This document shows positions 19,029 to 41,852 of a stretch of 64,000 nt of DNA, one piece after another; within the stretch, counting starts at the first letter, position 1, and every line of letters begins with the position of its first letter. Source of the DNA: Fulvivirga sp. M361 (lineage in GTDB: Bacteria; Bacteroidota; Bacteroidia; Cytophagales; Cyclobacteriaceae). Made by a program: the position numbers and the translations under genes. The DNA lies in the NCBI RefSeq assembly GCF_007097395.1, contig NZ_VKDC01000006.1, positions 124,001 through 188,000 on the forward strand, in the 5' to 3' direction. The notes under the pieces are model-generated. The model was given only the letters and a program-made list of their open reading frames with translations, had not been told where the DNA came from and did not search any database.

Positions 19029-20237
19029 ATGCAACACCTCCATGAACTGGCAAAAGCGCATCTTTCATTTTTGTGTGAAAAGATTACGAATAGATGTGTC
19101 GGGAGTAAAGGCAATTTATCCGCAACAAACTTCTTCAGCGAACAGCTAGAGAACTATAATTGGCAAGTAGAGCGTCAGGCATTTGAGGCCTTTGACTGGG
19201 AAAGTGAATATGCTTGTATTGAAATAGGTGAATTAGTGTTAAAAGCTTTTTCAAGCCCGTATAGTAACTCTTGTAACCTTAAAACTGAAGTTGAAATTGT
19301 TTCCACGATAGAAGAACTGAAAAAAACAGATACGGTCGACAAGATTCTGATCGTAAAAGGAGAACTGTCCATAGAACAACTAATGCCAAAGAATTTTGTG
19401 TTTTACAATCCGGACCATCATAAAAACATCCTTGCCTCACTTGAAAACAGCCGTGCCCTGGCCTTTATATTCATTGTCGGAAAATCGGGTTTCTACGAAG
19501 GCGGAGAGTACCCGTTTCCTATCATTGAAGATGGCGACTTTATGATCCCTTCCGTATTCATTTCGGAAGAAGATGGTGAGCAATTGCTCATGCATAAACC
19601 CAAAATGCTAAAACTGATATCAAGAACCAAAAAAATACCTTCAAAGGGCTATAACGTTATCGGGAGACAAGGCCATGGCAATGGAAAAAGAATTACAATT
19701 ACAGCGCATATCGATGCGAAAAAAGGTTCGTCGGGAGCCATTGATAATGGCACAGGTGTGGTAACTATGCTATTATTATCGGAATTATTGAAAGATTATA
19801 TCGGCAATTATCAAATAGAGTTAGTAGCACTCAATGGTGAAGATTATTATTCAGTGCCCGGACAAATGACTTACCTTAAGAACAACAAGGATAATTTCAG
19901 TGATATTGCGTTAAATATAAACATAGACGGTGCCGGTTTAAACATAGGTAAGACAGCTTATGCTTTGATAAATTTGCCTGACGTACAGATAAACAAAGCC
20001 AGAGATGTTTTTAAGCAGTTTTCAGGTTTCGTAGAAGGTAAGCCTTGGCTGCAGGGAGACCACAGCATGTTTTTGCAGTTTGGGGTCCCTGCAATAGCCA
20101 TATCGTCGGAATGGTTGTTAGATAATTTACAAACTCAACGGATAACACACACCGAAAATGATACTATGAGTAGGGTAGATTTGGATAAAGTAATAGAATT
20201 GGCAAATGCCATTTGTACGTTGATCTATAAATTGTAA
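19029..20237 (+). CDS. M28-family zinc peptidase-like protein
   Basis: The 402-residue protein has the architecture of bacterial M28 aminopeptidases: an N-terminal part interrupted by a PA-type insert (about residues 70-190), then the metallopeptidase domain. Metal-site motifs are ITAHIDAKKG, AIDNGTGVV, ALNGEDYYSVPG, NINIDGAG and a late THTENDTM histidine. The usual EE pair appears as ED, so activity should be tested rather than assumed. There is no signal peptide, which suggests a cytoplasmic protein. It is followed 21 bases later by an AraC-type gene, and the two look like an operon. Parts of this gene reappear in the degenerate sequence at 27.9-28.3 kb. The preceding 290 bases (18737-19028) show no convincing gene. 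Confidence 0.82.
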   Translation: MQHLHELAKAHLSFLCEKITNRCVGSKGNLSATNFFSEQLENYNWQVERQAFEAFDWESEYACIEIGELVLKAFSSPYSNSCNLKTEVEIVSTIEELKKTDTVDKILIVKGELSIEQLMPKNFVFYNPDHHKNILASLENSRALAFIFIVGKSGFYEGGEYPFPIIEDGDFMIPSVFISEEDGEQLLMHKPKMLKLISRTKKIPSKGYNVIGRQGHGNGKRITITAHIDAKKGSSGAIDNGTGVVTMLLLSELLKDYIGNYQIELVALNGEDYYSVPGQMTYLKNNKDNFSDIALNINIDGAGLNIGKTAYALINLPDVQINKARDVFKQFSGFVEGKPWLQGDHSMFLQFGVPAIAISSEWLLDNLQTQRITHTENDTMSRVDLDKVIELANAICTLIYKL

Positions 20238-20258
20238 AATATTGCGAGTAAAGTAGCT

Positions 20259-21071
20259 ATGACATACACAATTAAGAAACCATCTAAGGTGTTAGCTCCT
20301 TACATAAAACACTACTGGATGCTGGAAACACCGGTTTCATCTTACCCGGAATATGTACAAAGAATTGTCCCGAACGGTTTGTTCGAACTTACATTTTATC
20401 TGGGTGGCAAACCTGTTTTTGTTGACCACTCAAAATACACCTCCTTTAGTTTACAGTTTACCGGACAATTGAAGAACTATTTTGACATAAAAATAAGTGG
20501 CAGCCTGTCCTTATTTTCCGTGTATTTTAAACCACAGGGCCTCAGTGCCTTTCTGGATATACCACTTAAGGAAATATATAATGAGGTGATTCCCTTTCAT
20601 TATCTTTTTAGAACGGGTTCTGAAAGACTTGAGGAAGCATTACGCCATTCAGCATCTTTTACGGATAGAGTTGACGTCACCGAAAGGTTCTTGATCGACC
20701 AGATTCGTAAAAGGAAAAATTATTATGAGTTTGACCGGGTCAACCATTGTATTGAAGCTATCAACTCCAAAAAAGGAGAGGTTAAAATTGACCAATTGGC
20801 ATTGGATTGTTGTTTGAGCAGGAAACAGTTGGAAAGGACATTTTCAGATCACATTGGTGTATCACCAAAACAGTTTATCAAAATAGTCCGGTTCCAACGT
20901 ACAATCTACTGTAGATCCATTGATCAGGACGTTTCGTTAACTGAGCTGGCATACAAATGTGGCTATTATGACCAGTCTCACATGATCAATGATTTTATTA
21001 CTTTATCAGGTTTGACCCCCAAGCAATATTTTGAAGAATGTGAGCCGTTCTCAGATTATTTTTATGATTAA
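20259..21071 (+). CDS. AraC-family transcriptional regulator with N-terminal DUF6597-like domain
   Basis: The 270-residue cytoplasmic regulator has an N-terminal sensing domain of the kind seen in many Bacteroidota AraC proteins (YIKHYWMLETP, RIVPNGLFELTFYLGG, FSVYFKPQGLSAFL). A C-terminal pair of helix-turn-helix motifs follows (IDQLALDCCLSRKQLERTF and ELAYKCGYYDQSHMINDF). It lies 21 bases downstream of the M28 peptidase gene and is probably co-expressed with it. Its ligand is unknown. A clearly related but broken copy occurs at 27988-28265, in front of the adenylation/oxoamine-synthase gene. Confidence 0.9.
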   Translation: MTYTIKKPSKVLAPYIKHYWMLETPVSSYPEYVQRIVPNGLFELTFYLGGKPVFVDHSKYTSFSLQFTGQLKNYFDIKISGSLSLFSVYFKPQGLSAFLDIPLKEIYNEVIPFHYLFRTGSERLEEALRHSASFTDRVDVTERFLIDQIRKRKNYYEFDRVNHCIEAINSKKGEVKIDQLALDCCLSRKQLERTFSDHIGVSPKQFIKIVRFQRTIYCRSIDQDVSLTELAYKCGYYDQSHMINDFITLSGLTPKQYFEECEPFSDYFYD

Positions 21072-23726: not shown

Positions 23727-26700
23727 TTACTCCAAATCAGCATGCGTATGGACAGCCTGTCGCTGATCTACCATGCGCCCAATAAGCCATATAAATGGCT
23801 CGACTTGCCCGTTTAGCACACAGGTCCCCTCACAAATGCTGTGAAGTAGTCCTTGTACATCAAAGGGCTGCAAAGCCGAAACCGTGGCCTTCTCAGAGAG
23901 AAGCAACGAACAGTAAGGTAAGTCACAACCCTTCTGAGTACTTAATGTCACGTCTGCGTCTTTAACCAAAATTGTGATGGGCTCAGACGATTCAGAAACA
24001 CTAACTAATATGGCAAGATCCGGGGTTGGAGCAGCTACTTTAGCCATCGATTTTTTCAGATAGTCAGCGAATGCATTGGCCCAGACCACGACGTCAGAGT
24101 GCGTGATATTTGAGTTCCCTGTTTCATCACATACTGCGGCGAGTTGCTCATCTACTTCACGTTCTGCTTCGATGAGAGCTTCCAGCGTTTTATCCACGTC
24201 TTCACGTGTATGGGCCGCTGAGCAGATGAGTCTTAAGCGGCCTCGTCCGATTTCCACAATGGGATAGGTCACCGCCAATGTTTGAACGCCCCGCTGATAC
24301 AAGTTCTGTACTATGGCGTAAAGTTTATCTTTATCGCCAAAATGAGGAGTGACGATAGGTCCGTCTCCGGTCCCCAGGTCATACCCTGCCTCTTCGAATC
24401 GCCGGCGCATGTAACGGGTCATGTCCCACAATTGCTTACGTAATGCCTCATCGGAACGGAGGAGCCGTAATGATGTGAGAGCTGCCGCTATATCCGCCGG
24501 GCTAATGGAAGCCTGAAAGATGTAGGCCCTGGAAGACGACTTCAAAAGATCAATGTGCTCGTGGCTGGCCGCAACAACCCCGCCAATACTACCTAAGGCT
24601 TTGCTGAGGGTTGTCATGATGAAGTCCACCTCATCAGTAACACCTTGAGCAGCACAAATACCGGCCCCATTTTCACCGTAAAAACCAAAAGAATGCGCTT
24701 CGTCTACCAGCACGAGTGCATTGTATTTTTTTGCCGTACGTACAATTTCTGCGACCGGTGCGGTACCTTCTCCCATGCTATATACACTTTCCAAAACCAC
24801 CAGAACAGTACGATAGGGTGACACTTCCGACTCAAGGACAGCCGCCAGGTCAGATGCATTATTGTGCTGGAACGTTCTGATAGATGCACCGCTTAGACGA
24901 GCGCCATCAACAATAGATGCATGGCAAAGCTGATCGATAACAACAACATCGTTTTTTCCCAAAAGCCCTGAAACCGTTCCAAGATTGGCCGTATAACCGG
25001 TTGGAAACAGACAAGCGCCGGGTTTTCCTACTAAATCGGCAAACTCTTTCTCGAACTCCAGGTGTTGGTTGGTCATACCTGTCGCTGCTGCCGAAATGCC
25101 CATGCCGGTTCCAAAACGTGCCAAAGCAATGGAAGCTTCCCTGATAACTTTCGGATCACGGTTCAGTCCAAAATACAGGTTGGTCGACCATATAATGGCT
25201 TCCTGCTCTTCATTATGGTAGGAATCGCTGATTGTACCTCTGGCCGCGCTTCCCGTTTGCAATACCTTGCCATAAGGGTTTCTGCGATTGTCGTTCACCA
25301 TGCGCATGACTTCCTGAACCAGCTTGCTCTTATCATTAGCACTCCATGCCGGGGCATTCGCAGCCTGAAAGGTCGGATGACTGGATTGAATATTGGTTTG
25401 GAAGCTGGCAAGTGAATCTGTAGCCACACTAAGTAGCTTATCTGCTGAGAGGGGATCAGTGTCATTTCCCATCCTATTGATAATATAATTGACCAATGCC
25501 TTTGGGGTGGGGTGTTCAAAGACCGCATAGGCAGGCAACTTTTGACCCAGTAATTTGGAGAGTCGACTGCTAAATTCTAATGTAGTCAGCGAGTCGAGGC
25601 CAAGGCCTTCGAATGAATGGTCTGGCGATACCTGGTCCGGGTCCCCCAGGTTAAGCAGAGAAGCCACCTCGTTCTGAATGATCTGGAGTATCGTTGCCTG
25701 TTCGTTGTTTGAGCCCGCTAAATGTTCTATGAGTATACTGGCGTTATTGACTGCGTCAGCACCCGGAGTTACTGCACCTGTACTTTGTTCAAAACGCACC
25801 TCTTCTTCCAGGTTCATAAGTTTCTTACGGTCGAGTTTGTCATTGGGTAAAAGAGGCAGTGCTTTGAGGTGTTTCACAATCTGAGGAACCATATATTTTG
25901 GTAGTCGTTGGGATAAATAAGACTTGACGCTTGCCTCGGTTACTGCTTCACCCCGGCTTACCACATAAACTACCAGTATTTTCTGACCAATGCCTCCGTC
26001 CATGGCTGCCGCGGCCGCAGCGTCAACACCTTCCATCGACTCAAGGGTCGACTCAATTTCTTCAAGCTCAATTCGAAAGCCCCTGACCTTTACCTGTTGG
26101 TCTACACGGCCAAGGAATTCGATCTCTCCATTTTCTGTCCAACGGCACAAATCACCCGTTTTGTACAACCGGTTATCCGGAATCAGATCACTCGGTTCCA
26201 TCTCGATAAAACGCTCCCTGGTCAGTGCTTCCTCGTGCAGGTACCCACGTGCAAGCTTGCTGCCTGCGAGATATAATTCTCCCGCTACCCCGGCAGAAAC
26301 GGGTTGCAAAGCATCATCCAAAATGTACGCACGTGAGCCGGAAACCGATTTGCCAATTGTAACCACCTTGGCGCCACGAGGAACTTCGGCAATGGTCGAA
26401 TAAACGGTATCTTCGGTAGGACCATAGGCGTTTAACACGCGCAGTCCCGGGTTTTGTACATGGACCTGTTCAACCAGTGAACGTTTGAGCGCTTCGCCTC
26501 CAAAAACCAGGCATCGTATTCTCTCAGGCAATCTTTCTGTAGAGAGCAATGCTTGTACTGAAGATGCGACCATTACACAGGTCCTCACTTGGTCTGACGC
26601 AGGAAGTTTAGTTAACTCAAGAGCGTTTTTCGCTAGTATTATAGTACCACCCAGTGACAAAGTGCCCATAATTTCCATAACTGAAGTATCGAAACATACA

Positions 26701-27482
26701 GAGGCGCCGGCAAACACCCCTTTCAGCTCTTCATCACTGAATAGTTCGCGCATAGACTGACTCATGTAAACCACACTTCTGTGCTCAACAGCAACCCCTT
26801 TTGGTCGCCCTGTTGAACCCGAGGTATAGATGACATAGGCCAAATCACTGGCAGAGGGTCGTACCAGGTTATCTGTATGATTCCCTAATTTATCGATCCA
26901 CATCAGCTCACGTACTCCACTGCATAGGTAGGCAGAATCGTCATTATTCACGATAGCTGCCACAGCACGAGAATGTGTTAACATATACCGGACCCGGTCT
27001 TGCGGATATGCGGGGTCCAGCGGTACATATGCACACCCTGCTTGCATCACACCAATAAGAGCGGCGATCAGTTCCCAGGATCGGTCCATACATACCCCGA
27101 CTAACGATCCCGGTTCTACTCCAAGAGCCACAAGCTCTCCGGCAACCTCACCAGCCCGTTTCATGAGACCTCTATAATCAATTTTGATCTCCCCATCGAT
27201 AATTGCCATCCGTTCCGGGTATTCCAGCATTTGCCTGGCAATCCGTCCACAAATTGTTGTTTCTAAATGATCACTGGTTTTTTTGACCAGCTCTTTCTCC
27301 ATTAATTTTTGCAAATCCCGGGCCGCCATCCCGATTATCTCTTCTGCATACTCTACTCCCGCTGCATTCAACATACTCCGTCGATTGCGGGCAATTTCGG
27401 CCTCGCTCGAGCCTGAATTAAAACGGTCCAGTTTATCCGTATGGGCTAACAGCTCGCTGAAAAATTGAGTTAAGTTATCCAT
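23727..27482 (-). CDS. Stand-alone A-T-alpha-oxoamine synthase assembly-line protein
   Basis: The 1251-residue fusion has four parts. Residues ~1-560 form an amino-acid adenylation domain with [49 protein letters not shown] and the A10 lysine in PNDKLDRKK. Residues ~600-675 are a carrier domain with the phosphopantetheine serine in [12 protein letters not shown] (Ser631). Residues ~720-1130 are a PLP-dependent alpha-oxoamine synthase of the KBL/AONS/serine-palmitoyltransferase type, with [12 protein letters not shown] and the Schiff-base lysine in [11 protein letters not shown] (Lys961). The last ~120 residues form a separate domain that vaguely recalls SCP2-like sterol-carrier folds. Known chemistry predicts that the A domain loads an acid on the carrier and the PLP domain condenses it with a free amino acid, losing CO2. 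The gene seems richer in G+C than its neighbours. No other NRPS/PKS gene or phosphopantetheinyl transferase is visible nearby. Confidence 0.92.
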
Positions 27483-27936
27483 TTGTTCTTCCTTTTTGAT
27501 TGTTGCTTAGATTGTATTCGTGTGTCCTTTTGACCAGATATATCTTTGAACACTTTTGTTTGGTAATTAAAAATACCATAAAAAAAGCCACATCCTTCAT
27601 AATAAATCCGGCAATTTATAGCACTTTCCCGACGTGATGCAGAGTCCTGAGTTGAGGGTTTAAGAGATTGTCAACGGTACCGGCAAAAGAACAGATTGAT
27701 CAACAGGGTTTTAGAATTATAGTCCTATTAGTGGAAATCAAAAAATTGGGAGATATACCTTATGTCAAGTGTGACCTTTTCCCATCACAGACCCTTTAGT
27801 CAATGAAAATTTTATAACCCTCGTATTTGATCCTGCTTTGGGATCACGACAGGCAGACCAGACTGTTTATGCCCGCGTTTCTCAAGCGGATGATAAGCTT
27901 TACATAGGTAACGATCGAGACAGTGCCTGGGTATTG
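27483..27936. other. Region upstream of the assembly-line gene, no intact gene
   Basis: These 454 bases hold the promoter region of the - strand assembly-line gene and no convincing coding sequence. A frame open from 27838 reads into the degenerate peptidase/AraC copy, but its first ~30 codons match nothing I recognise. The segment next to the gene is A/T-rich, as expected for a promoter. I could not identify a specific operator. Confidence 0.4.
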
Positions 27937-28265
27937 GGAGCAAAGGTAATTTACCTGCAACGAACTTCTTCAGAAAGCGACCAGCGAGCCATTTTCAGCT
28001 CACACGGAATATGTGCAAAGAATTGTTTAGAACTTACATCTTATTTGAGCGACAAACCGGTTTTTGTTGACCACTCAAAATACTCCTCCTTTAATTCACA
28101 GTTTACCAGACAATAAAAGAGCTATTTTGACATAAAAATAAGCAGTAGTCTGTCTTTGTGTTCAATGTATTTCAAACTGCAAGACCTTAGTGCCTTCCTG
28201 GGTATACCAATTAAAGAAATATATAGACGAGGTTATTCCCCTTCATTATCTTTTCAGGAAGGATG
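27937..28265 (+). pseudogene. Decayed, internally deleted copy of the M28 peptidase/AraC gene pair
   Basis: Bases 27937-27985 resemble the beginning of the M28 gene around 19098-19146 (shared words GGGAGCAAAGG/GGGAGTAAAGG and CAACGAACTTCTTCAG/CAACAAACTTCTTCAG). From about 27999 the sequence instead follows the AraC gene from ~20348: CGGAATATGTGCAAAGAATTG, then TTTTTGTTGACCACTCAAAA and TATTTTGACATAAAAATAAG are near-identical. The match continues to about 28260, to the block TCCCCTTCATTATCTTTTCA. Most of the peptidase gene is missing, a 14-base deletion lies early in the AraC part, and a stop (28114-28116) interrupts it. It has the same orientation as the intact pair. Confidence 0.8.
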
Positions 28266-37976: not shown

Positions 37977-40900
37977 TTAGCCCTCACTTTTAACGATCCG
38001 GCCTTGTTTTACCTTACCTTGATCGGTCGTCACATAGTAAATGTACATCCCGGCCCTGAGTTGATTCAGGTCTAGAGTAGTAAATCGGCTGTCAATACTT
38101 GTCGAAAAAACCTCATTGCCGGCCAGGTCAAATACACTTATCAAAACATCACCCGTCTGTTCCATAGTATTTATGTCCAGTTCCAGATGGAGTTGCGTGC
38201 TAAAAGGATTCGGATAAACTCTTATCTCCCGCTGCTCTTCAAAAAGACCTTGTTCAATACTTTTGTCAGAGGCAGGAGCGGTTGTTCGTGCTGTAGCCAA
38301 TGGAGCTCTTGCTGTAGCCAGGGCTGTCACCTGTTCCGGGCCAATGGCCTCTTTATAGATCCTGACATCATCGATCAGGCCATTCCAGTATTCAAACTTA
38401 TCGTTCACCTGTTTTCCAATAAAGGCCTCTGACAGTTCCAGGGGCCAGTTCTTGTTTTCACTGGCTATTTCCACACCATCGGCATACAGCTTTGCCACAG
38501 TACCGTCATAGGTCAGGGTAATATGATGCCATACATTTTCCTGCCAGAAGTTGGGCACGACCAGGTCATCCTGGTACCCGCCGGCTACCAGGTCTTTTCC
38601 TTTTTGGCCTATGAACATAGCTTTTGACTTGGTTCCTTTGCCAAAAGCAGCGATCCATCGGAATCCGTTGGAAACATCCTGTGTGGTGGCCCATGCACTT
38701 AATGAGCGTGCTGCCTCACCCTCGGGAAGTACGTCCGGATTTCCCAGGTCAATGTATTGCCTCTGACCGTTGAGCTCTAATGCGTGCGTACCTTCTTTCT
38801 TCACGGTAGAGAAGTCCGCGCCGCCCTGTAATGTGCCGTTAATACTGTTGGCTGTTTCGTCCACGGTAGTATTATTCAACTTCCAGTGACCTACCAGTGT
38901 TTCGGGTTGTGGTGGCACAATGCTGATGATCTCTTCGATCTCCTGGCCGGTAAGTACCTTGTTGTATATTCTTACATCATCGATCCGTCCGTTCCAGTAC
39001 TCGAATTTATTGTTCACCTGTTTTCCAATAAAGGCCTCTGACAGTTCCAGGGGCCAGTTCTTGTTTTCACTGGCTATTTCTATGCCATCAGCATACAGCT
39101 TTGCCACGGTACCGTCATAGGTCAGTGTGATATGGTGCCATACATTTTCCTGCCAGAAGTTGGGCACGACCAGGTCATCCTGGTACCCGCCGGCTACCAG
39201 GTCTTTTCCTTTTTGGCCTATGAACATTGCCTTTGATTTGGTTCCTTTGCCAAAAGCAGCGATCCATCGGAAACCAGTGGAAACATTCCGGGTAGTGGCC
39301 CATGCACTTAACGAACGTGCTGCCTTACCTTCGGGCAGTACGTCCGGATTTCCCAGGTCAATGTATTGCCTTTGACCGTCGAGTTGCAGTGCGTGCGTAC
39401 CTTCTTTCTTTATGGTAGAGAAGTCTGCGCCACCTTGCAATGTGCCGTTAATGTTGTTGATGGTTTCGTCCAGGATGGTATTGTTCAATTTCCAGTGACC
39501 TACAAGCGTTCCGGGTGTTGGTGGTGGTTCAGCACTGATAATCTCTTTGATCTCCGTATCGGTGAGTACTTTATCATATATTCTTACATCATCGATCAGG
39601 CCGTTCCAGTATTCGAATTTATTGTTCACCTGTTTTCCGATGAAGGCCTCTGACAGTTCCAGGGGCCAGTTCTTGTTTTCACTAGCTATTTCGACGCCAT
39701 CAGCATATAGCTTTGCCACGGTACCGTCATAGGTCAGGGTGATATGGTGCCATACATTTTCCTGCCAGAAGTCAGGCACGATCAGGTCGTCCTGGTATCC
39801 ACCGGCTACCAGGTCTTTTCCTTTTTGGCCAATGAACATAGCTTTTGACCTGGTTCCTTTTCCAAAAGCGGCAATCCATCGAAATCCACTGGAAACATTC
39901 TGGGTGGTAGCCCATGCACTTAACGAACGTGCTGCCTTACCCTCGGGCAGTACGTCCGGATTTCCCAGGTCAATGTATTGCTGCTGGCCGTCGAGTTGCA
40001 GTGCGTGCGTACCTTCTTTCTTTACAGTAGAGAAGTCTGCGCCACCTTGCAATGTGCCGTTGATATTGTTGACCGTTTCGTCCAGGGTGGTATTGTTCAA
40101 TTTCCAATGGCCCACCAGTGTTCCGGGTGTGGGTGGTGGTTCGGTACTGATGATCTCCACGATCTCTGTATCGGTGAGAACTTTATCATATATTCTTACA
40201 TCATCGATCAGACCGTTCCAGTATTCGAATTTATCGTTCACCTGTTTTCCAATAAAGGCTTCTGACCGTTCTAATGACCAGTTCTTGTTTTCACTGGCTA
40301 TTTCCACACCATCGGCATACAGCTTTGCTACAGTACCGTCATAGGTCAGGGTAATGTGATGCCATACATTTTCCTGCCAGAAGTTGGGCACGACCAGGTC
40401 GTCCTGGTACCCGCCGGCTACCAGATCTTTTCCTTTTTGGCCAATGAACATAGCTTTTGATCGGGTCCCTTTTCCAAAAGCGGCGATCCATCGAAAGCCG
40501 CTGGAAACATCCTGTGTAGTGGCCCATGCACTCAAAGACCGTACTGATCTGCCCTCGGGAAGAGCGTCCGGATTTCCCAGGTCAATGTATTGCCTTTGAC
40601 CGTCAAGTTGTAGTGCGTGTGTACCTTCTTTGTTGGAAGTGGTAAAGTCTGCGCCACCTTGTAATGTGCCGTTAATATTGTTGGCCGTTTCGTCCAGGGT
40701 AGTATTGTTCAATTTCCAATGACCGACGATTCCACCGTCTGAGGTATTTCTGACAGGTGTGGTCACATCTTCGGCAGGTGAAAAATCAGATGTCCCGTTA
40801 TCGTTGACTGCTCTGACTCTGTAATAATAGGTTGTACCGGACTCAAGAGAATTGTCAAGATACTCCGTATCGTCAGATCCGGAGGTGTGAACCGTTGTAT

Positions 40901-41852
40901 ATTGCTCTGGTTCGTCTGTTGCTCTTTGGACTTCGAAATATTCTTCATTGTCGGAGTTGTCAGCCCAGTTTAGCGCGACTTGCGAAGGTGAAATAGCGCT
41001 GGCCTGAAGGCGATCAGGTCCATATGGAGGGCTACCCGGGCTATTATTGGGATCGCGGCTAAGGTCCAGGAACCATTCGTAAAGGTTGGGATTGTGAACG
41101 GAATGGTCAGTGGCATATGCCCTGGACCAGGAGTTATGGCCAACGCCCTGATAGGTAGAAAACCGAAGTTCGGCTGTAGGTACAGGATCGGTACAGTCTT
41201 CGATGGCGTCGAATAGGTCTTTTCCCCTGTTGTAGGTAATGGTACGATCATTTGTGCCATGGAAAGCCCAGACATTGATCTTTCTTTCTGAAATAACACA
41301 TGCCTTGGATATGGCCCCAAAAGCAGCTACCGGCGCCATGGCCCTGAGGATATTGGGATTGTTTTCAGGGCCGTAGGCATAGTTATAAGTACCGCCACCG
41401 CCAAGGCTTAAACCCGTCAAAAGTATGCGGTCCGGATCAATTCTATAATTATCAGGTCCGTTAATGACATGTTCCATTACTTCATGAATAAGGCTACTTC
41501 TCCAGAAACCACTTTTGAGCTGGGGAGAGATCACAATATAACACTCTTCGACTCCACCAACTGAGTAACACATTTTATGACCATTCTTAATGTGTCTGGG
41601 AGGCCCGTTCTTCTTTACACGTTCCAGGGCGCCCGGACTCCCGTCACCTTTTTCTCCAGATCCATGTAAAAAAATTAATACCGGATACAGCTTATTGGGA
41701 TTGCTATCATAGTCCGGGGGAAGGTGTTCGAGGTACCCAAGTTGGTTACTGCCTGATGTACGTTTGGGGGTTTGTTGTGAAAAGAGTTTGCCTGATAAAA
41801 TCAGGGCTAAAAGAAAAATGTAACTGGTTCTCACGGGTAAGGCTTTAATCAT
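37977..41852 (-). CDS. Secreted esterase with FN3, four LamG modules and a T9SS sorting domain
   Basis: The 1291-residue secreted protein has a signal peptide (ending KLFSQQ). An alpha/beta-hydrolase esterase of the feruloyl-esterase/PHB-depolymerase type follows (residues ~25-275) with LIFLHGSGEKGDG, the nucleophile in TGLSLGGGG (Ser149), AFHGTNDRT (Asp202) and GVGHNSW (His239). Next is a fibronectin type III domain (~285-365), then four tandem LamG modules of ~204 residues each (VGHWKLNNT, IDLGNPDxLPEG, WHHITLTYDGTVAKLYADGV, FEYWNGLIDDVRIY). The protein ends in a T9SS sorting domain (IRVYPNPFSTQLHLELD to QGRIVKSEG). The modules probably bind glycan and hold the esterase to its substrate. 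Acetyl, feruloyl or other ester groups on algal or plant polysaccharide are candidate targets; no choice can be made by eye. Confidence 0.87.
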   Translation of the reverse strand: MIKALPVRTSYIFLLALILSGKLFSQQTPKRTSGSNQLGYLEHLPPDYDSNPNKLYPVLIFLHGSGEKGDGSPGALERVKKNGPPRHIKNGHKMCYSVGGVEECYIVISPQLKSGFWRSSLIHEVMEHVINGPDNYRIDPDRILLTGLSLGGGGTYNYAYGPENNPNILRAMAPVAAFGAISKACVISERKINVWAFHGTNDRTITYNRGKDLFDAIEDCTDPVPTAELRFSTYQGVGHNSWSRAYATDHSVHNPNLYEWFLDLSRDPNNSPGSPPYGPDRLQASAISPSQVALNWADNSDNEEYFEVQRATDEPEQYTTVHTSGSDDTEYLDNSLESGTTYYYRVRAVNDNGTSDFSPAEDVTTPVRNTSDGGIVGHWKLNNTTLDETANNINGTLQGGADFTTSNKEGTHALQLDGQRQYIDLGNPDALPEGRSVRSLSAWATTQDVSSGFRWIAAFGKGTRSKAMFIGQKGKDLVAGGYQDDLVVPNFWQENVWHHITLTYDGTVAKLYADGVEIASENKNWSLERSEAFIGKQVNDKFEYWNGLIDDVRIYDKVLTDTEIVEIISTEPPPTPGTLVGHWKLNNTTLDETVNNINGTLQGGADFSTVKKEGTHALQLDGQQQYIDLGNPDVLPEGKAARSLSAWATTQNVSSGFRWIAAFGKGTRSKAMFIGQKGKDLVAGGYQDDLIVPDFWQENVWHHITLTYDGTVAKLYADGVEIASENKNWPLELSEAFIGKQVNNKFEYWNGLIDDVRIYDKVLTDTEIKEIISAEPPPTPGTLVGHWKLNNTILDETINNINGTLQGGADFSTIKKEGTHALQLDGQRQYIDLGNPDVLPEGKAARSLSAWATTRNVSTGFRWIAAFGKGTKSKAMFIGQKGKDLVAGGYQDDLVVPNFWQENVWHHITLTYDGTVAKLYADGIEIASENKNWPLELSEAFIGKQVNNKFEYWNGRIDDVRIYNKVLTGQEIEEIISIVPPQPETLVGHWKLNNTTVDETANSINGTLQGGADFSTVKKEGTHALELNGQRQYIDLGNPDVLPEGEAARSLSAWATTQDVSNGFRWIAAFGKGTKSKAMFIGQKGKDLVAGGYQDDLVVPNFWQENVWHHITLTYDGTVAKLYADGVEIASENKNWPLELSEAFIGKQVNDKFEYWNGLIDDVRIYKEAIGPEQVTALATARAPLATARTTAPASDKSIEQGLFEEQREIRVYPNPFSTQLHLELDINTMEQTGDVLISVFDLAGNEVFSTSIDSRFTTLDLNQLRAGMYIYYVTTDQGKVKQGRIVKSEG
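38335..40735 (-). repeat. Four tandem LamG-coding repeats, period about 612 bp
   Basis: The same DNA recurs with a 612-base spacing. The words around GGCACGACCAGGTC occur near 38555 and 39167, a variant with GGCACGATCAGGTC near 39776, and the first form again near 40386. Repeats are near-identical over long stretches at the DNA level, not just the protein level, which implies recent duplication or ongoing gene conversion. Long frames on the + strand recur with the same period and are shadows. Confidence 0.9.

Follow-up and report, generated by a model that had tools for sequence, protein, structure and literature searches.

Gene and domain layout

The window analysed here is a stretch of 64,000 nucleotides from Fulvivirga sp. 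M361. On its minus strand, at 23727..27482, lies a solo gene encoding an enzyme of 1251 amino acids with an adenylation (A), a carrier (T) and an alpha-oxoamine synthase (AOS) domain, followed by a C-terminal domain modelled as SCP2-like. The assignment is based on the open reading frame, which starts with ATG and has its stop at 23727, and on full-length relatives in several phyla. A Shine-Dalgarno-like GGA is located 8–10 nt 5' of the ATG (27490..27492, minus strand). The coordinates given in an earlier note on this DNA are right, and the strand, absent from that note, is minus, as for the parts of the gene listed below.

The first 70 residues (27273..27482) form an N-terminal extension, at least 70% filled in 28 of the 79 aligned members of the family, and this extension is not general to the family. 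The A domain (residues 83–557, 25812..27236) contains Pfam matches to AMP-binding (residues 83–415, E 2e-71) and AMP-binding_C (475–549), and scores 387.2 bits with the NCBIfam model of amino acid adenylation, TIGR01733, above its cut-off of 317.4. By this profile, and by the Asp and Lys equivalents discussed below, it is identified as an NRPS-type amino acid adenylation domain. The T domain (residues 598–670, 25473..25691) matches PP-binding (601–667, E 1e-14, 54.9 bits against a cut-off of 20.8), with the phosphopantetheine attachment residue Ser631 encoded at 25590-25592. A conserved linker containing the motif SSHPTFQA (residues 680–745, 25248..25445) leads into the AOS domain (residues 717–1112, 24147..25334), where Aminotran_1_2 matches residues 763–1103 (E 2e-44). 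The AOS domain features His854, Asp927, His930, Lys961 (codon 24600-24602) and Arg1084, and a substrate-side loop SAAA at residues 797–800. The C-terminal domain, assigned by its predicted fold, spans residues 1125–1240 (23763..24110).

Pfam thus agrees with the earlier reading of A, T and AOS domains in one protein. It also yields no match to condensation, ketosynthase or thioesterase domains anywhere in the 1251-residue chain (E up to 10 for condensation), again as read before. By its domain content, a chain without a condensation domain is not a canonical multi-domain NRPS module. Since the whole layout is conserved across phyla, it is not a chance arrangement.

Members of the family and their conservation

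Relatives were collected by scanning 84,980 species, a set that may omit the genome of the window itself, with two peptide patterns falling in the linker (SSHPTFQA) and in the AOS domain. Because of this choice distant members are missed, and the sharp edge of the family is partly made by the search. The scan produced 81 relatives, of which 80 were retained, representing 77 distinct loci. They come from the Bacteroidota (Aquimarina, Kordia, Fulvivirga, Tenacibaculum, Sinomicrobium, Chitinophaga and others), the Pseudomonadota (Pseudoalteromonas, Microbulbifer, Shewanella, Lysobacteraceae, Janthinobacterium and others), the Acidobacteriota (Sulfidibacter, Acanthopleuribacter and bins) and one Myxococcota bin; for those loci that are metagenome bins, the taxonomic label may be mistaken.

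Genome searches show that the synthetase gene is rare and patchy. Among 145 genomes of relatives, that of the window included, 14 match at E 1e-140; twelve besides the window have essentially the whole gene, and one (G016) has two fragments. In the genus of the window the gene is matched in 10/15 genomes, its own included, while among 395 genomes drawn evenly across the phylum that of the window is alone in matching at E 1e-85. The Pseudoalteromonas aurantia locus gives a similar picture: 23 of 108 genomes of its genus match (the seed included, one match being a fragment), and out of 299 genomes of its phylum only the seed genome does so at E 1e-80. In each of 20 carriers searched by locus, one copy of the family was found, and two of these carriers hold in addition a distant AOS, 34–37% identical.

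The 77 scan loci, the window and four loci from the genome searches make up 82 sequences; after removal of the fragments L038, L040 and L103, 79 were aligned. Ser631 and Lys961, which stand on re-reading of the sequence, are invariant in all 79, and so are His854, Asp927, His930 and Arg1084. The mean pairwise identity is 0.80 for the AOS domain (minimum 0.67), 0.60 for A, 0.44 for T and 0.38 for the C-terminal domain. It is as expected of one shared reaction that the AOS domain is the most conserved part, although this conservation is partly selected for, as both scan patterns fall in the linker and the AOS domain.

Phylogeny and possible transfer

The tree of the 79 members was constructed with FastTree only, a quick method, and has a long-branch warning for L104. 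The phylum labels require at least 6 changes on it, the least possible number being 3 and the shuffled mean 29.0. The window copy has its highest identity (84%) with a bin of the same genus, L031, but on the tree its partners are Aquimarina intermedia and a Cellvibrionaceae bin, away from most Fulvivirga copies. The copy of Chitinophaga japonensis groups with three Sinomicrobium copies. These placings fit horizontal transfer, with the cautions due to the quick method, the bins and the long branches, and suggest that the synthetase gene has spread horizontally. On the same tree, the copy of Kordia aestuariivivens (L037) is found among those of Aquimarina.

Carriage on plasmids was considered and rejected. 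A 575-residue query from the T domain to the end of the protein is nowhere covered to 80% at E 1e-60 in 72,556 plasmid records. AOS relatives, 36–44% identical, occur in four of the records, and the two inspected are stand-alone genes, in Rhizobium rhizoryzae (L106:7851-9137) and Photobacterium damselae (L107:7866-9173). Their products are 44% and 37% identical, respectively, to the AOS part and have a related loop, GTSAMSGG; they are possible outer relatives of the family.

Genomic neighbourhood

For the 82 loci, the neighbouring genes at distances of up to about 10 kb were sorted into clusters; the gene itself was recovered in 78 of these neighbourhoods, the ORF picker having skipped L071–L073 and the fragment L103. 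Besides the synthetase, no gene is widely shared among the 82 neighbourhoods, and no assembly-line gene recurs. The widest group is a generic short-chain dehydrogenase, present at 8 loci, 0.1 to 9 kb away, on either side and on either strand. Then follow a Kordia synteny group of 7 loci and smaller Pseudoalteromonas groups. A clustered pathway was therefore rejected, the widest neighbours being a generic dehydrogenase and local synteny. At L027 the dehydrogenase follows the synthetase gene by 107 bp on the same strand, a placing that does not recur elsewhere, and there it could act on an aminoketone. At the seven Kordia loci (L044, L054, L055, L059, L062, L063, L070) the genes upstream of the synthetase come in a common order.

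In the window, the products of the neighbours tested include an ECF-type sigma factor, AraC regulators and a PKD protein, besides a hydrolase with a weak match. The earlier note had seen no other assembly-line gene, and indeed none of the ten proteins tested between 19029 and 37151 has an NRPS or PKS domain, nor does any further A-domain match of the genome fall within the window. The genome (8.1 Mb) does have NRPS-type A domains, on C63 and at C105:561-575 kb, about 0.4 Mb away. Condensation domains are present on contig C63, far from the synthetase gene.

Thirty-three genomes, a part of the carriers, were searched for condensation domains. They are found in 28, so that partnership with other lines is possible in some hosts. 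One could thus imagine the protein as a loading or release module serving other NRPS or PKS lines of its host in trans, and in Flavobacterium hercynium a 996-residue ORF with an adenylation-like start adjoins the family member (L034:11890-14880, minus strand, convergent, at a distance of 171 bp); it clusters with the family by BLAST. We consider such a role in trans unlikely, given the lack of recurring assembly-line genes and the five carriers without a condensation match at E 1e-5 (G005, G010, G050, G532, G549), of which the first three are 98–99% complete, though fragmented into 280 to 1300 contigs. All five have at least one match to the phosphopantetheinyl transferase family. The solo character noticed originally in one window is hence reinforced by the comparison: as the neighbours are not shared and 5/33 carriers lack a condensation match, the synthetase is probably self-sufficient and can probably act without other NRPS lines at least in these five hosts.

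Adenylation and carrier domains

Asp265 and Lys549 are present in all 79 aligned members. We take them to be Asp235 and Lys517 in the GrsA numbering, and the equivalents of these residues mark A domains specific for alpha-amino acids. The specificity code, placed by what we take to be the GrsA positions and re-derived by hand, is DTMVVGAVYK, in agreement with the earlier reading, and matches no standard code known to us. It is the commonest in the family (27/79 members) among 23 codes, which are mostly hydrophobic, and the pocket reads as mostly hydrophobic. The carrier motif is mostly G[LIV]DSL.

The alpha-oxoamine synthase domain

The PLP domain is assigned to the alpha-oxoamine synthase family by its fold type I, the catalytic Lys and the conserved His, Asp, His and Arg. 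Among the best 25 of 116 NCBIfam families, however, it falls below every equivalog cut-off for SPT (325.7 of 500, 302.1 of 640 and 257 of 670 bits), BioF (320.7 of 426.45), KBL (310.8 of 460 and 260.6 of 493) and ALAS (255.6 of 338.55). By resemblance, its closest kin is serine palmitoyltransferase (SPT). In the alignment with S. paucimobilis SPT, with pairs counted by eye, His854 corresponds to His159, Lys961 to Lys265, Arg1084 to Arg390 and Ser797 to Ser102. Arg390 presumably holds the carboxylate of the amino acid, and Arg1084 occupies its position.

The loop starting at Ser797 is SAAA in 75/79 members, as opposed to SRML in S. paucimobilis SPT. According to a paper on ThAOS, the residue equivalent to Ser102 lies on a loop controlling amino acid entry, and smaller residues there widened the substrate range (PMC11906848). 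By analogy, this small-residue effect may carry over to the AAA of the family loop. The family differs from stand-alone SPT, KBL, AONS (BioF) and ALAS not only by scores under the equivalog cut-offs (within the best 25 of 116 families), but also by this loop and by the fusion to A-T and to the SCP2-like domain.

That the protein might be a decayed or non-catalytic fusion is most improbable, since the catalytic residues are invariant in 79/79 members and the window copy agrees with the family at every well-filled column conserved at 95% or more. Two residues of this copy that look odd, Ile796 and Thr801, were considered as signs of decay and rejected, as they are common to other members; the 11-residue stretch concerned is seen in 13/79.

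Proposed reaction

On balance, we lean towards a self-sufficient single-module synthetase that joins two amino acids through a C–C rather than a peptide bond. The A domain would activate a hydrophobic alpha-amino acid with ATP and load it onto the phosphopantetheine arm of Ser631. The AOS domain is probably a dimer, as in related enzymes. Its PLP, bound at Lys961, would take up a free amino acid whose carboxylate is held by Arg1084; once deprotonated, this amino acid would attack the aminoacyl thioester with loss of CO2. By the chemistry of the family, condensation and release would occur in one step, and so neither a condensation nor a thioesterase domain would be needed. A 1,3-diamino-2-ketone would be set free, and its dimerisation and oxidation could lead to dihydropyrazines or pyrazines. 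The invariance of Asp265, Lys549 and Arg1084 fits an aminoacyl-S-T substrate plus a free amino acid. Against this reading, the pocket code varies, with 23 codes among 79 members, and a small diaminoketone has no obvious need of a lipid-type SCP2 domain.

A wider proposal, tentative and open to considerable doubt, is that the family is a stand-alone, horizontally moving system of one gene and one metabolite with the A-T-AOS-SCP2-like order, converting two amino acids into a diaminoketone-type signal or defence compound in several phyla. If true, one gene would yield one compound in several phyla, and the product could be found by expressing this single gene; the spread across phyla without partner genes would point to a general function. 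The enzyme would be a compact catalyst, of use in biocatalysis, that activates an amino acid and joins it to another by a C–C bond, and an example of carrier-based chemistry without condensation or release domains, in which the SCP2-like domain would gain a place.

The C-terminal domain

In 78/79 members the C-terminal domain is filled to 70% or more, the exception being L088, a bin with an early frame end. The earlier note had left it unassigned. By sequence this stands: the Pfam scan of the window copy gives no match in this region; the C-termini of 13 copies, the window's included, scanned singly, match three Pfam families in one copy each (best E 0.001), none consistently; and the best hit in a profile search of solved structures (PDB) has only E 0.84. 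For an assignment to SCP2 by sequence, Pfam and PDB profiles give nothing usable, and the assignment is made by the predicted fold: the top fold matches of the AlphaFold2 model are UbiJ-SCP2, SCP2 proteins and alkylsulfatases, and the domain is therefore modelled as SCP2-like. A profile–profile comparison with SCP2 is weak (P 0.006, HH probability 6.2%, 79 collinear columns; controls P 0.15, 0.27 and 0.34). In the genome of the window, PF02036 has no match at E 0.001.

SCP2 folds bind lipids, and SCP2 domains usually go with lipids. Hence one has to consider that the T-bound amino acid is itself the nucleophile: PLP would bind its free amine, the SCP2-like domain would bring in a (long-chain) acyl-CoA with which the AOS domain acylates the alpha carbon, and hydrolysis and decarboxylation would come last, giving a sphingoid-like aminoketone lipid. 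The fold matches and the resemblance of the AOS domain to SPT speak for this course, but it is fairly unlikely. The invariant Arg1084 occupies the presumed carboxylate site, which fits a free amino acid and not a thioester, and so favours a free nucleophile; moreover, no thioesterase domain was matched. If two amino acids are joined as preferred above, the SCP2-like domain may bind or shield a hydrophobic product or help to position the carrier.

Comparison with known systems

An A-CP-AOS layout has been on record since 2013. Table 2 of a survey has two AOS-type proteins denoted A-CP-PLP2, A1ZVW4 of Microscilla marina and A3ZWL3 of Blastopirellula marina, and assigns neither cluster nor product to them (PMC3870968). 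Compared by description only, they have the same order of adenylation, carrier and Aminotran_1_2 domains as the window protein, while the table entries give no C-terminal domain or function. A further point in common is that the family locus L036 is titled uncultured Microscilla sp. The earlier note named a characterised homologue of the same domain order as grounds against its reading; among the top matches in the open-licence PMC literature no such characterised protein was found, yet the A-CP-AOS layout itself had been tabulated. Nor did the top-matching open-licence PMC papers yield a function for the layout, its SCP2-like domain, its breadth or its solo character.

TamD of the tambjamine pathway is a carrier-AOS protein encoded in a 19-gene cluster, its chemistry being given as a hypothesis in a conference abstract (PMC4698589). 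In TamD and in the CP-AOS and CP-CP-AOS entries of the survey, the carrier is fused directly upstream of the AOS, as in the family, but these chains lack an adenylation domain and are listed with no other domain. The abstract proposes that the acyl donor of TamD sits on the carrier, which argues against a T-bound nucleophile. By analogy we infer that the AOS domain of the family takes a T-bound rather than a CoA-bound acyl group. Most characterised AOSs do use acyl-CoA, also according to the paper on ThAOS (PMC11906848), and the AOS domain could use acetyl- or another short acyl-CoA, with A-T only supplying the amino acid and a simple aminoketone as the product. This is quite unlikely, as it would leave the conserved A-T fusion without a clear role as acyl donor.

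Two other systems are similar in part. In BioWF, an acyl-CoA synthetase–AONS fusion, one chain activates the acid and feeds the AOS, as in the family; however, it is a di-domain protein handling pimelate through CoA. SgaAB links an AOS to an assembly line with only two genes, but its iterative PKS and AOS are separate proteins; they act in a sphingolipid pathway, with L-serine and a fatty acyl thioester as the expected substrates (PMC12134224).

Other features of the window

The M28 peptidase and AraC genes at 19096-20616 have degenerate partial copies across the synthetase gene, at 27931-28262, with pieces 74–85% identical. From these sequence pieces they are read as a relict duplication flanking 20.6–27.9 kb. 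Farther away, at 37977-41852, the window encodes a protein of 1291 residues in which, by eye, a hydrolase-like start is followed by four near-identical repeats; this protein is probably secreted.
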